44,948 nt of DNA, from the NCBI GenBank assembly GCA_017483575.1, contig JAFUWF010000004.1, positions 1 through 44,948 of the forward strand. Direction: 5' to 3'. Below, piece after piece: positions 39,755 through 43,169 of this stretch. The notes under the pieces are model-generated. The model saw nothing but the letters and a program-made list of their open reading frames with translations, was not told the DNA's origin and made no database searches. The translations under genes were made by a program, and so were the position numbers. How positions within the stretch are numbered: position 1 is the stretch's first letter; each line of letters starts with the position of its first letter. The DNA is from Bacteroidales bacterium. GTDB taxonomy: Bacteria > Bacteroidota > Bacteroidia > Bacteroidales > P3.

Positions 39755-39774
39755 ACTTTTTTATCTCCTCCCCA

Positions 39775-39918
39775 CACACTCCTCCGTCCGCCCTGCGGGC
39801 GTCTACCTCCCCTAGCTTAGGGGAGGAACCAGATACCAAAGTGTAGACATGTACTATCTTGACTGCTCCCCTAACGTTAGGGGAGCTGGCAGCCCGTCAG
39901 GGCTGACTGAGGAGTGTG
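39775..39918. repeat. Hairpin-rich element, copy A3
   Basis: Full copy, opposite in orientation to A1: starts CACACTCCTCCGTC, contains CTCCCCTAGCTTAGGGGAG and GCTCCCCTAACGTTAGGGGAGC, ends GACTGAGGAGTGTG. Confidence 0.85.
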
Positions 39919-39945
39919 TGGGAAAGCCCCCTCCAATCCCTATTC

Positions 39946-40070
39946 TATTCGACCGTTCTTATATAGTATACATATAGTATTCATATACTTCTCATATACT
40001 TCTTATATACTGTATATGAATACTATATGAGAAGTATATGAATACTATATGTATACTATATGAGAACAGT
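39946..40070. repeat. AT-rich palindromic element, copy C3
   Basis: Inner arms of about 55 bp pair almost completely around 40012, with the 11-bp units TATACATATAG, TATTCATATAC, TTCTCATATAC. The outer ATTCGAC is kept on the left; the right end is shortened compared with C1 and C2 (GAACAGTGCTATTTG). Confidence 0.8.
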
Positions 40071-40161: not shown

Positions 40162-40713
40162 ATGGTTTTAAGTCGAAATATCATCCTCTGGACGGCCCTT
40201 ATGGCTGCCGTGGCGCTGGCCGGGTTTGCTCCGGCGCAGGTCCGGGCGCAGGAGGCGGGCAGGCTGGTGGGTGCCGTGGTGGACGCGAAGACCCTCGAGC
40301 CGATGCCGTTTGTACAAGTGTCGCTCTATCAGGGCGACTCGTTGGTGCGCAGGACCATGAGCGATTTCGACGGCGTCTTCAAGTCGGGGCCGATGCCCGT
40401 GGGCGAGTATGTGATGAAGGTGTCCACCGTCGGCTACCACGACGTGGAAAAGACCGTCATCCTTCGTCCGTCGGGCTTCTGGATGGAGGATGTGCATCTG
40501 GAGGCAGACCCTTCCAAACAGGTTGGCTGCCCCGTCATCGAGATGGGGCACAAGCCGGAGGTTGTCGTTGCCGTCGAGGAGGAGACTCCGCCACCTCCGC
40601 CGCCGAGCCACGACATGGATGTGGTCCGTTGCGGCATCGCCTCGCCCCTCTCTTCCAGCGTCCCGCCGCAGCAGGAGTATGAGAAGGAAGGTGTGAGAGT
40701 GGTAGTAAAATGA
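40162..40713 (+). CDS. Secreted carboxypeptidase-regulatory-like domain protein
   Basis: 183-residue exported protein. Signal peptide at about residues 1-30 (ending APAQVRAQ) and one carboxypeptidase D regulatory-like beta-sandwich at about 32-115 (GRLVGAVVDAKTLEPMPFVQ, MSDFDGVFKSGPMPVGEYVM). A Pro/Glu-rich linker (EEETPPPPPPSH) and a low-complexity tail follow. ATG 40162 is preferred to a TTG at 40141 because it places a proper signal. It lacks the Cys-rich N-terminal module of the next two genes. The stop overlaps an ATG at 40710 that opens into repeat A4. Confidence 0.82.
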   Translation: MVLSRNIILWTALMAAVALAGFAPAQVRAQEAGRLVGAVVDAKTLEPMPFVQVSLYQGDSLVRRTMSDFDGVFKSGPMPVGEYVMKVSTVGYHDVEKTVILRPSGFWMEDVHLEADPSKQVGCPVIEMGHKPEVVVAVEEETPPPPPPSHDMDVVRCGIASPLSSSVPPQQEYEKEGVRVVVK

Positions 40714-40726
40714 AACGAAGACACAA

Positions 40727-40859
40727 CACACTCCTCAGTCAGCCGCAAGCGGCTGCCAGCTCCCCTAACTTAGGGGAGCAGCCAGATAGACATGACGGCG
40801 GCAGCAGCTCCTCCCCTAAGCTAGGAGGTGGCTGCCCGAAGGGCAGACGGAGGAGTGTG
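40727..40859. repeat. Hairpin-rich element, copy A4
   Basis: Full copy starting CACACTCCTCAGTC and ending GACGGAGGAGTGTG, between the first and second genes of the cluster. It is open in the frame of the second gene: from an ATG at 40710 it would translate as TLLSQPQAAASSPNLGEQ, the same peptide as in the GNAT gene, and continue into the gene. Confidence 0.85.
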
Positions 40860-40877
40860 AAAAATATAGGACAGATT

Positions 40878-41855
40878 ATGAACAAAGGCAAAGACATCTG
40901 CAAGGAGCTGAAGGCCGTCCGCAAACAGATTGCGGCGGAGAACGGCATTCCGCTCGACATCCCCGAGTGCACCTACAAAGGGCCCTGCCGGGGGACTTGT
41001 CCGCGGTGCGAGAGCGAGGTGCGGTTCCTGGAGAACGAGCTGGCAAAGCGTATCAAGCTCGGCAAGGTGGCCACGGTGGCCGGCATCGCGCTGGCGCTAG
41101 CGGCGCCGGGAGTGGCCGAGGCTCAGAGCGGCGAGACGCCTGCGGTGCCGCCGTCGCACGAGCGGCAGGTGGGCGAATGCGAGGTGACGGGCGTGGTGGT
41201 CGACGGCAAGAGAGGCGAGCCGATTCCCTACGCACGGGTGATGCTTTTGAACGGCGGCGACACGGCCAAGGTGACGGTGACGGACTTCGACGGTCGCTAC
41301 CGGTTCAATGTCCTTGCAGGACACTATACGATGGTTGTCAATTACGTCGGTTACAAGCAGTTCCGCCGCGAGGTGGACGTCAAAGGCTATGGCGCTGAGC
41401 AGGCCGAGGCGACGCTGGAGGCCGCGGCCGTCGTGATGGACACGGCGCGGCTGGAGAATTCGTTTACGGGTCTCGTCCAGGTGGTGTTTGAGACGAAGGG
41501 CACGCTGCTGGACGAGCGGACGAAGGAGCCGCTGCCGTTTGTGAATGTCATTGTGAAGCAGGACGGGCAGGCGGTTGCAGGTGCCACCACCGACTTCGAC
41601 GGCAATTTTGCGCTCGAACTGCCGGAAGGCAAGTACGATTTCGAGATAAGTTCTCTCGGCTACGAAAGGATGACCTTCCCCGTCAGGGTGCCGGACGACA
41701 CGCCGTTGAAGGCCATCGAGTTGAAGAGTACCGCCCGGCATCTGGAGGGAATAGTTGTAATAGATCCTGACAAGGTGCCACTGATGGAAATAGGGTCCCC
41801 CGGTACGGTGCAGGGAACGGAGATTGACGGCGTGCAGGTGCGCGTGCAATATTGA
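40878..41855 (+). CDS. Cys-rich-module protein with two carboxypeptidase-regulatory-like domains
   Basis: 325-residue protein. Residues 1-57 are a charged Cys-rich module: KDICKELKAVRKQIAAENGI, then Cys31, Cys37, Cys41 and Cys44 (ECTYKGPC and CRGTCPRCESE), with a CX3CX2C core. Residues about 60-83 (LGKVATVAGIALALA, GVAEAQ) look like a signal-peptide core with an Ala-x-Ala site, so the module sits before an export signal. Two beta-sandwich domains follow (about 95-175 and 195-275). The end is EIDGVQVRVQY. Family known to me from Bacteroidales but without function. A longer start at 40710 through repeat A4 is possible; ATG 40878 fits the paralogue. Confidence 0.82.
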   Translation: MNKGKDICKELKAVRKQIAAENGIPLDIPECTYKGPCRGTCPRCESEVRFLENELAKRIKLGKVATVAGIALALAAPGVAEAQSGETPAVPPSHERQVGECEVTGVVVDGKRGEPIPYARVMLLNGGDTAKVTVTDFDGRYRFNVLAGHYTMVVNYVGYKQFRREVDVKGYGAEQAEATLEAAAVVMDTARLENSFTGLVQVVFETKGTLLDERTKEPLPFVNVIVKQDGQAVAGATTDFDGNFALELPEGKYDFEISSLGYERMTFPVRVPDDTPLKAIELKSTARHLEGIVVIDPDKVPLMEIGSPGTVQGTEIDGVQVRVQY

Positions 41856-41871
41856 AAAAAAAAGAATGGAT

Positions 41872-42543
41872 ATGAACAGAGGCAAAGATATCTGCAAGGA
41901 ACTTAAAGCTGTCCGCCGTCAGATTGCGGCGGAGAACGGCATCGATTTGGAAATTCCGGAGTGCACCTACCATGGGGCCTGCCCGGGAACGTGCCCGCGC
42001 TGCGAGAGCGAGGTGCGCTTCCTGGAGAACGAGCTGGCAAAGCGTATCAAGCTCGGCAAGGTGGCCACGGTGGCAGGGCTGGCGCTGACGCTCTCGGCTA
42101 CGGCGCAGGCGCAGGATGTCGCGCCCCGTCAGCAGCAGGCTGCCGACAGTGTGAAGGTGGAACGGAAGGTGGCGATGTATGAGGTGAAGGGCTCCGTGGT
42201 CGACGAGAAGACTCGGGAACCGCTGCCGTTTGTGAACGTCGTCGTCATGCGCGACGGGAAGCAGGTGCATGGCGCCACCACCGACTTCGACGGCAACTTC
42301 AAGCTCCGGCTGCCAGAAGGCGAATATGATTTCGAGATAGTCACTGTAGGTTATGCACGGTATATACGGACGGGCGTCAAGGTGCCTATGGAACAGCCGT
42401 TGGAGGTCGAGCTGAAAAATGATGCTACGCCGATAGATCAAATAATAGAAGTGGGAGGTTCGTATTTCCCCATCATCGATATAGGACCAGAAGGTGGGAT
42501 GAATACCAATATTCAAGGCGTTCCGCTGTATATTCAATATTAA
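41872..42543 (+). CDS. Cys-rich-module protein with one carboxypeptidase-regulatory-like domain
   Basis: 223-residue paralogue of the preceding protein. The Cys module has the same Cys positions 8, 31, 37, 41 and 44, followed by a signal-like stretch (LGKVATVAGLALTLSATAQA) and one beta-sandwich domain (about 98-180: YEVKGSVVDEKTREPLPFVN, TTDFDGNFKLRLPEGEYDFE). The end, NIQGVPLYIQY, resembles the paralogue end. DNA coding for residues 44-68 is nearly identical between the two genes, more alike than the rest, suggesting recent duplication or gene conversion. ATG 41872 matches the paralogue; 41866 is an alternative. 14 bases before the radical SAM gene. Confidence 0.82.
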   Translation: MNRGKDICKELKAVRRQIAAENGIDLEIPECTYHGACPGTCPRCESEVRFLENELAKRIKLGKVATVAGLALTLSATAQAQDVAPRQQQAADSVKVERKVAMYEVKGSVVDEKTREPLPFVNVVVMRDGKQVHGATTDFDGNFKLRLPEGEYDFEIVTVGYARYIRTGVKVPMEQPLEVELKNDATPIDQIIEVGGSYFPIIDIGPEGGMNTNIQGVPLYIQY

Positions 42544-42557
42544 TTCCTGTTTTCAAA

Positions 42558-43169
42558 TTGGAAAGTGTACCGTTCATAGGCATCGACCGTCACCGGTTGG
42601 GCATCGACGGGGTGGGGGTGACCACCCTGGCGGCCTTCCACGGCTGTCCGTTGAGGTGCAGGTACTGCCTGAACCGCCGTTGTCTGGAGGACCCGGAGGG
42701 CCTGCGGAGGTTTACGCCGCAGGAGCTGTACGACTACGTGGGGGTGGACAACCTCTACTTCATCGCCACGGGCGGCGGCGTCTGCTTCGGCGGCGGCGAG
42801 CCGCTGCTGAGGGTGGACTTCCTCACCGAGTTCAAGGCGATTTGCGGCAAGGGCTGGAACCTCACGGCGGAGACATCGCTGCAGGTGCCTTCGGAATCCG
42901 TCCGAGGCGCCGCCGAGGTGGTCGGCGACTTCATCGTCGACATCAAGGAGAGCAATCCTGACATCTACTATTCCTATACCTCTGGCGACGCCGCCCGCGC
43001 TTGGGACAACCTCGCCTTGCTGCTGTCGCTGGTCGGCCCGGAGCATGTCATTGTCCGCGTGCCCCAAATCCCCGACTACAACACCGAAGCGGACTGCGAC
43101 CGTACCGCTCAGCGGCTCGTTTCTATGGGAATCACGAGGATAGACCGTTTCGTTTATAGAGTAAAGTGA
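42558..43169 (+). CDS. Small radical SAM protein (activating-enzyme-like)
   Basis: 203-residue radical SAM enzyme. The [4Fe-4S] motif is GCPLRCRYCLN (Cys30, Cys34, Cys37; CX3CX2C), followed by GGGVCFGGGEPLL (about 72-84), the SAM-binding GGEP. DIKESNPDIYYSYT and VIVRVPQIPDYNT resemble pyruvate-formate-lyase activating enzymes. No auxiliary cluster or extra domain is visible. The only start in frame is TTG at 42558, 14 bases after the previous stop. There is no glycyl-radical enzyme in the window; the neighbours are the Cys-module proteins, which are the obvious candidate partners (inference). A terminator follows at 43205. Confidence 0.85.
   Translation: MESVPFIGIDRHRLGIDGVGVTTLAAFHGCPLRCRYCLNRRCLEDPEGLRRFTPQELYDYVGVDNLYFIATGGGVCFGGGEPLLRVDFLTEFKAICGKGWNLTAETSLQVPSESVRGAAEVVGDFIVDIKESNPDIYYSYTSGDAARAWDNLALLLSLVGPEHVIVRVPQIPDYNTEADCDRTAQRLVSMGITRIDRFVYRVK

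Follow-up and report, generated by a model that had tools for sequence, protein, structure and literature searches.

Why do two adjacent exported proteins of a Bacteroidales bacterium begin with the same cysteine-bearing segment, placed ahead of the signal peptide, right beside the gene of a small radical S-adenosylmethionine (radical SAM) enzyme? The question arises from a 44,948-nucleotide stretch of DNA analyzed at its full length (the window; contig JAFUWF010000004.1 of assembly GCA_017483575.1). A sequence-only reading of this window had pointed out a common five-Cys N-terminal module in the two genes, likened it to a recognition leader, and proposed that the neighboring enzyme binds or modifies its carriers before export. 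Both genes were confirmed, with the five Cys at positions 8, 31, 37, 41, and 44 of the module. Comparison across genomes strongly supports a partnership of the module with this radical SAM subfamily. With slightly better than even confidence, we favor a two-component protein-modification system, in which a minimal radical SAM enzyme is paired with a Cys-module docking tag, a Gly-centered motif behind the tag would be modified, and the module would be removed afterwards.

The partnership is seen in the distribution of the two genes. In the window's family (190 genomes; module at E up to 1e-3, enzyme at E up to 1e-15), the module was found in 69 genomes and the enzyme in 69. Both are present in 65, with four module-only and four enzyme-only genomes (Fisher p 1e-40, relatedness being ignored). 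Completeness is 59%–75% for three of the module-only genomes and 96% for the fourth, which has 9% contamination. As for the enzyme-only genomes, G055 and G160 hold truncated pieces of the enzyme, and G150 has an enzyme with a different C-terminal part. In G055, which has no module match, the remnant (L298 2991–3251) is in frame with a signal-peptide-like start and is apparently a decayed copy. In a draw of 393 genomes from the order (enzyme at E 1e-20), 15 genomes carry the enzyme, and every one of these also has the module. Weak module matches in G295, G375, and G402 (E 3.5e-4 to 9.8e-4), entered in the Fisher test as module-only, come with no CX3CX2C in open reading frames (ORFs) of at least 85 residues and are probably spurious. 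A lack of co-occurrence, named beforehand as refuting the proposed pairing, is clearly contradicted by these two draws. Among 395 genomes drawn from the phylum, enzyme matches below E 1e-90 were found only in G000, the window's own genome, and G353; six further matches (E 5e-37 to 7e-26) were assumed to be other activases.

The two genes are also physically close. A scan of named genomes returned at least 519 relatives of the enzyme, and 80 loci were kept. In 68 of these loci the enzyme gene has a module gene at most 1 kb away, in 70 at most 3 kb away, and in one at a greater distance. The fetched stretch holds no module gene for the other nine, five of which have the enzyme gene at most 0.6 kb from a contig end. 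Carriers among the gut and rumen Bacteroidales include Bacteroides faecis, B. xylanisolvens, and B. reticulotermitis, and up to 11 module-tagged proteins occur in one genome (G182). Loci with both genes were also met on contigs labeled Clostridia or Clostridiales (L177, L182, and L184), from either mis-binned metagenome-assembled genomes or transfer. In the window's genome (1.96 Mb, 78% complete), which has a single such enzyme, the module occurs four times in full and once as a half, more sharing than chance would give. The two full copies outside the window lie away from the sole enzyme gene and precede lipobox-like sequences, one in a 155-residue protein (L003) and one in a TonB_C protein (L004).

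Natural fusions tie the two components together. Seven genomes, namely six of the nine of genus g33 together with G129, carry the module as a C-terminal extension of the enzyme in which all five Cys of the module are retained. All three enzyme matches of G129 are fused to the module; this genome has three module matches, whose places were not listed. In G323, G419, and G559, the g33 genomes covered by the module search, the fused module is the sole module match of the genome. The gene next to the fusion encodes, in all six g33 loci, a peptide of 61–92 residues without the module, which carries L-[VI]-G-[DE]-[IL] near its end. In such lineages the module would have moved to the enzyme, and the small separate peptide would be the candidate substrate. 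In G422, an 88-residue standalone module protein adjoins the enzyme.

The module itself is well defined. The two window copies are 84% (80 residues) to 88% (74 residues) identical, and alignment A4, of 70 sequences and without half modules lacking the Cys loop, shows no variation at the five Cys. Of 165 free modules, 158 space their Cys after C31 as 5-3-2, four have this spacing plus an additional Cys, and three do not match the pattern; CX3CX2C is present in at least 162. The sequence-only reading had seen in this CX3CX2C an echo of the cluster motif of the enzyme. This idea was rejected, and the equal spacing is probably a coincidence and an unconserved property, because all eight full-length fused genes checked read CX4CX2C (4-4-2 after C31); a ninth fused gene, cut at its start, reads CX3CX2C. 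The structure predicted for the module alone, at high confidence (pLDDT 92, pTM 0.75), comprises a helix at residues 3–22, a Cys-bearing loop, and a second helix at residues 42–59. Compared with Protein Data Bank (PDB) structures, this model gave no match below E 5, and the module profile gave weak matches only to PDB sequences (best E 0.16, anti-TRAP). Against Pfam and NCBIfam, the best matches of the 70 members, to PF11405 (E 0.00099, two members) and NF033497 (E 0.0015, two members), were not accepted as membership. A scan of viral contigs matched 99 pattern stretches, with no relative of the module among them. A half module, consisting of the first helix without the Cys loop, starts a membrane-protein-like ORF in the window's genome (L005 1024–1569; G000 C26), and a comparable half module begins an ORF at L110 4036–4533.

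The C-terminal position of the fused module bears on an alternative that we consider possible, albeit clearly less probable than a docking tag. The module could be an auxiliary metal or iron–sulfur (Fe–S) domain of the enzyme, similar to SPASM or twitch domains and provided in cis by C-terminal fusion or in trans by the substrate, its Cys serving catalysis or electron transfer and not recognition only. SPASM domains are C-terminal in other radical SAM maturases, such as anSME and the sactisynthases, and the fused forms likewise end in a Cys-rich domain with five invariant Cys. In addition, a Pfam search of the 203-residue window enzyme at E up to 1 found only Radical_SAM and Fer4_12, with no RiPP (ribosomally synthesized and post-translationally modified peptide) recognition element, SPASM, or second cluster domain. 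The C-x5-C-x-G-x-C-P segment of the module resembles part of the SPASM pattern, to whose C-x5-C-x3-C segment hhalign aligned it weakly (P 0.0018, probability 15%; the profile was built from five sequences chosen by pattern). Sub-threshold matches to PRK13745, a SPASM-type radical SAM model, were found in six of the 70 members (best E 0.021). However, matches to the zinc ribbon PF08274 are slightly stronger (20 of 70 members, best E 0.0029), and SPASM is absent from the 18 Pfam families matched by the 70 members at E 0.1. Both resemblances are weak, and neither counts as evidence of membership. Unlike the SPASM and twitch maturases, moreover, the present system has the domain mostly on the substrate, and its predicted helix-loop-helix lacks a PDB counterpart at the threshold given above.

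A candidate target motif lies behind the module. The strict form L[EMAQ]G[DE][VIP], picked after viewing the sequences, occurs 46 times in 34 of 124 non-redundant module proteins (six of 130 clusters were dropped with under 20 residues left), compared with seven occurrences in 955 neighboring proteins holding 14 times more sequence. The middle position of L-x-?-[DE]-[VIP] is Gly in 54 of 93 cases in module proteins versus 35 of 540 in these controls. When 69 non-redundant linkers and short tails from the same proteins were searched de novo, 55 yielded a motif resembling L-[EL]-G-[DE]-V, in which the Gly is conserved at 98%. In a hold-out set, taken from 40 additional stretches of the home family only, 10 of 41 proteins reached a motif-model score of at least 9 (1.4 expected) and 15 of 41 a score of at least 7 (3.5 expected). 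Seven of the 41 share over 25% of their 5-mers with a discovery protein; among the other 34, seven score at least 9. The looser [LIV].G[DE][VIP] is found in 14 of 43 hold-out proteins. The motif is enriched among module proteins, yet not universal. As judged from sequence, this Gly-centered motif appears a likelier target than the module itself.

The motif could instead be a binding or sorting motif unrelated to the enzyme, with the module and the enzyme acting elsewhere, for example in a redox or metal check before export; we regard this as unlikely. The linkers of lipoproteins and TonB_C proteins in which it lies are a plausible place for localization signals, and not all module proteins have the motif. 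However, among TonB_C proteins the loose form is found in six of seven with the module, which overlap the discovery set, and in only one of 22 without it, and the rarity of the strict form among the neighbors agrees with this. Furthermore, module proteins in which no signal peptide is recognizable have the motif too (for example, ELTGDV in L154 7195–7482 and LMGTPMPVP in the serpin protein of L126), as do the module-less peptides beside the fusions. This serpin fusion (L126 1913–3334; G156) carries the module, no recognizable signal peptide, and the linker VTMGMPDPTKPEVLMGTPMPVP. A neighbor ORF in G157 (L127 5438–6376) has VTMGMP in common with it and contains an LQGDV segment.

The proteins that carry the module are diverse, with lipoprotein-like ones among them. 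A domain scan of 119 of them (eight of 127 being left out) found TonB_C in 45, CarbopepD_reg_2 in 44, and a serpin domain in one. A common module ahead of otherwise different proteins, with genes beside a putative modifying enzyme, looks like a shared leader region, and the recognition-leader idea fits this modular architecture. By pattern, the export signal of 165 module proteins is a lipobox in 74, an A.AQ site in 52, another hydrophobic segment in 30, and not recognized in nine, for at least three of which the script set the module end too far right. Such misplacement affects few proteins (among them L075, L089, and one in L154) and only shortens the tail counted. The two window proteins have sites of the signal peptidase I type, not a lipobox; judged by eye, their hydrophobic segments end in AEA and AQA, each before a Q, and the CarboxypepD_reg domains follow. 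The A.AQ sites agree with the Bacteroidetes Q-rule for signal peptidase I (PMC10653852).

These sites imply that export would remove the module and, with it, any modification that it bears. This bears on a further and quite improbable explanation, namely that the module itself is the substrate, which the enzyme modifies or matures while the exported part is a mere passenger. The module alone is common to all clients, and the standalone module protein of G422 would suit such a role, but a lipobox or A.AQ site follows the module in 126 of 165 clients by pattern. Moreover, in the g33 fusions it is the enzyme that carries the module and the separate peptide that carries L-x-G-[DE]. Some clients (L003, L182, L208, L273, and L284) consist of little beyond the module, a signal peptide, and the motif, which is present in one to three copies. 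The pair is directly testable, since the smallest module proteins have only about 40 residues behind their predicted lipobox (L273).

The enzyme is related to the activases of glycyl radical enzymes by its fold, predicted for a homolog to be of the pyruvate formate-lyase activating enzyme (PFL-AE) type, and by its CX3CX2C cluster motif. Activases of this class act on glycyl radical enzymes. The window enzyme scores under the curated cut-offs of TIGR02494 (95 versus 174.35 bits; E 4.7e-27) and TIGR02493 (71.1 versus 231.75 bits), and its partners, in contrast to those of PFL-AE and other activases, are the Cys module and exported proteins. A search of 15 carrier genomes with PF01228 (E 1e-5) found no match in 10, nine of them at least 91% complete; in the other five, the match lies off the contig of the enzyme, anaerobic ribonucleotide reductase not having been searched for. 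A neighboring glycyl radical enzyme, named beforehand as refuting evidence, was found on the contig of the enzyme in none of the 15. That the enzyme is an ordinary activase with an incidental module neighborhood, as its fold and sequence class might suggest, is very improbable and largely refuted by these PF01228 results, by the near-perfect co-occurrence with the module, and by the fusions. We file the system as a variant of leader-guided radical SAM modification, outside the activase family. A weak PADLOC match to viperin (E 0.0065) was put down to general radical SAM similarity. Beyond the three cluster ligands, no Cys is invariant among 14 enzymes (alignment A2), so that a hydrogen donor among the Cys of the enzyme is less likely; the donor could instead be a Cys of the module.

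In the two-component system that we favor, the module would act as a docking or recognition domain, an N-terminal extension of the signal peptide on many unrelated exported proteins. In the cytosol, before Sec export, it would bind the enzyme and present the disordered segment behind it to the active site. The enzyme would then attack L-x-G-[DE]-[VI], with hydrogen abstraction at the alpha-carbon of the Gly as the most probable reaction. This position is the most plausible because structural relatives, such as PFL-AE, act so on a Gly in an extended loop. The resulting radical may end in a thioether, cleavage, oxidation, or re-reduction. Finally, Sec export and signal peptidase I or II would strip off the module, leaving the modified linker on the mature protein or lipoprotein.

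Several observations weigh against this model. The Fisher p values exaggerate the association, since they ignore the relatedness of the genomes; one genome (G042) has an intact enzyme and no module match, and no module gene was found in the stretches of four named enzyme loci, which extend 2.9 kb or more to either side. Docking rests on the pTM of 0.90 of a predicted fusion structure. The motif is missing from 14 of the 69 linkers, 31 of the 41 hold-out proteins stay below score 9, and the strict expression matches only three of 43. Window protein 2 has no good site (best motif-model score 3.3), nor has the B. xylanisolvens module protein in L199 by the loose pattern. Of seven small peptides encoded next to fusions, a single one attains score 9; the six from g33 are homologous and so provide few independent observations. 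Within the home family there is also a second, C-terminal motif, E-x-x-G-V-x-V, which was set aside as a universal target because it occurs in only 38 of 165 module proteins. It occurs in two module-less proteins as well, one being the first gene of the window array; eight of the 10 rows counted as module-less were module proteins fetched later or cut at the locus end.

The system has likenesses among known ones. TIGR04133 and TIGR04134 are paired genes with a Bacteroidetes range, and TIGR04134 is a family of radical SAM-associated putative lipoproteins. Here, however, only the beta-sandwich part matches TIGR04134 (18.7 and 15.3 bits versus a cut-off of 39.8), and TIGR04133 is not among the 25 of 27 family matches listed for the enzyme. 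MNIO systems include RiPP–lipoprotein hybrids (DAG-RiPPs) and MNIO-modified proteins over 30 kDa (PMC12636315). As described there, the targets are likewise Sec-exported, often lipidated and some over 30 kDa, belong to Bacteroidota, and carry a short conserved motif, sometimes repeated; a comparable lipobox is present by pattern in the 74 module proteins counted above. In contrast, the enzyme here is a radical SAM protein rather than an MNIO, and recognition apparently proceeds via an N-terminal folded Cys module rather than a C-terminal motif. The main text of a survey of Bacteroidales RiPPs (PMC10352776) is without the terms TonB, carboxypeptidase, lipoprotein, signal peptide, and glycyl. 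A literature search, with much subscription literature outside its reach, returned no paper describing the pair in its title or the start of its abstract.

The four genes of the window array run in the same direction over 40162–43169.

Features of the radical SAM and Cys-module array (positions in the window)
Feature	Positions	Strand	Remarks
Exported CarboxypepD_reg protein, signal peptide, without Cys module	40162..40713	+	C-terminal tail resembles that of module proteins
C-terminal motif EKEGVRVVVK of first gene	40681..40710	+	
Module protein 1, 325 aa: Cys module, signal peptide, two CarboxypepD_reg domains	40878..41855	+	
57-residue Cys module of protein 1 (Cys 8, 31, 37, 41, 44)	40878..41048	+	Predicted helix-loop-helix
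RHLEGIVV in protein 1, candidate L-x-G-type target motif	41736..41759	+	Motif-model score 10.8
C-terminal motif EIDGVQVRVQY of protein 1	41820..41852	+	
Module protein 2, 223 aa: Cys module, signal peptide, one CarboxypepD_reg domain	41872..42543	+	
57-residue Cys module of protein 2	41872..42042	+	
C-terminal motif NIQGVPLYIQY of protein 2	42508..42540	+	
Small radical SAM protein, 203 aa, one CX3CX2C cluster motif	42558..43169	+	Pfam: Radical_SAM + Fer4_12

The start of protein 1 was set by homologs at the Met of MNKGK (40878), the mechanical ORF opening at 40710; the enzyme gene has a TTG start, 14 nt 3' of the second module gene. A dispersed palindromic repeat, CTCCTC...CTCCCCTAA-TTAGGGGAG...GAGGAGTGTG, is present in two copies (39774–39919 and 40716–40862), the second lying inside the in-frame extension 40710–40877 of the mechanical ORF. 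Used as a query, this second copy matched the genome in 71 rows, several of which show a single site once for each strand. Upstream of the operon, an AT-rich inverted repeat (39952–40070; 59 nt, 90% complementary, 1 nt between arms) contains 11-bp periodic units.

These data suggest a chemical modification of envelope proteins before export that has gone unrecognized. Tentatively, and as a somewhat improbable elaboration, we propose that an activase-type enzyme was repurposed for Gly radical modification of the linkers of many exported proteins of anaerobes, an auxiliary and possibly metal-bearing domain having become a removable substrate tag. If true, activase-type enzymes would have a substrate class other than glycyl radical enzymes. 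Should the product be an exported glycyl radical or an O2-cleavable form, it would act as a switch of the cell envelope that oxygen triggers. Modification of the motif would mean that the gut microbiota harbors a widespread, unannotated modification of envelope proteins.

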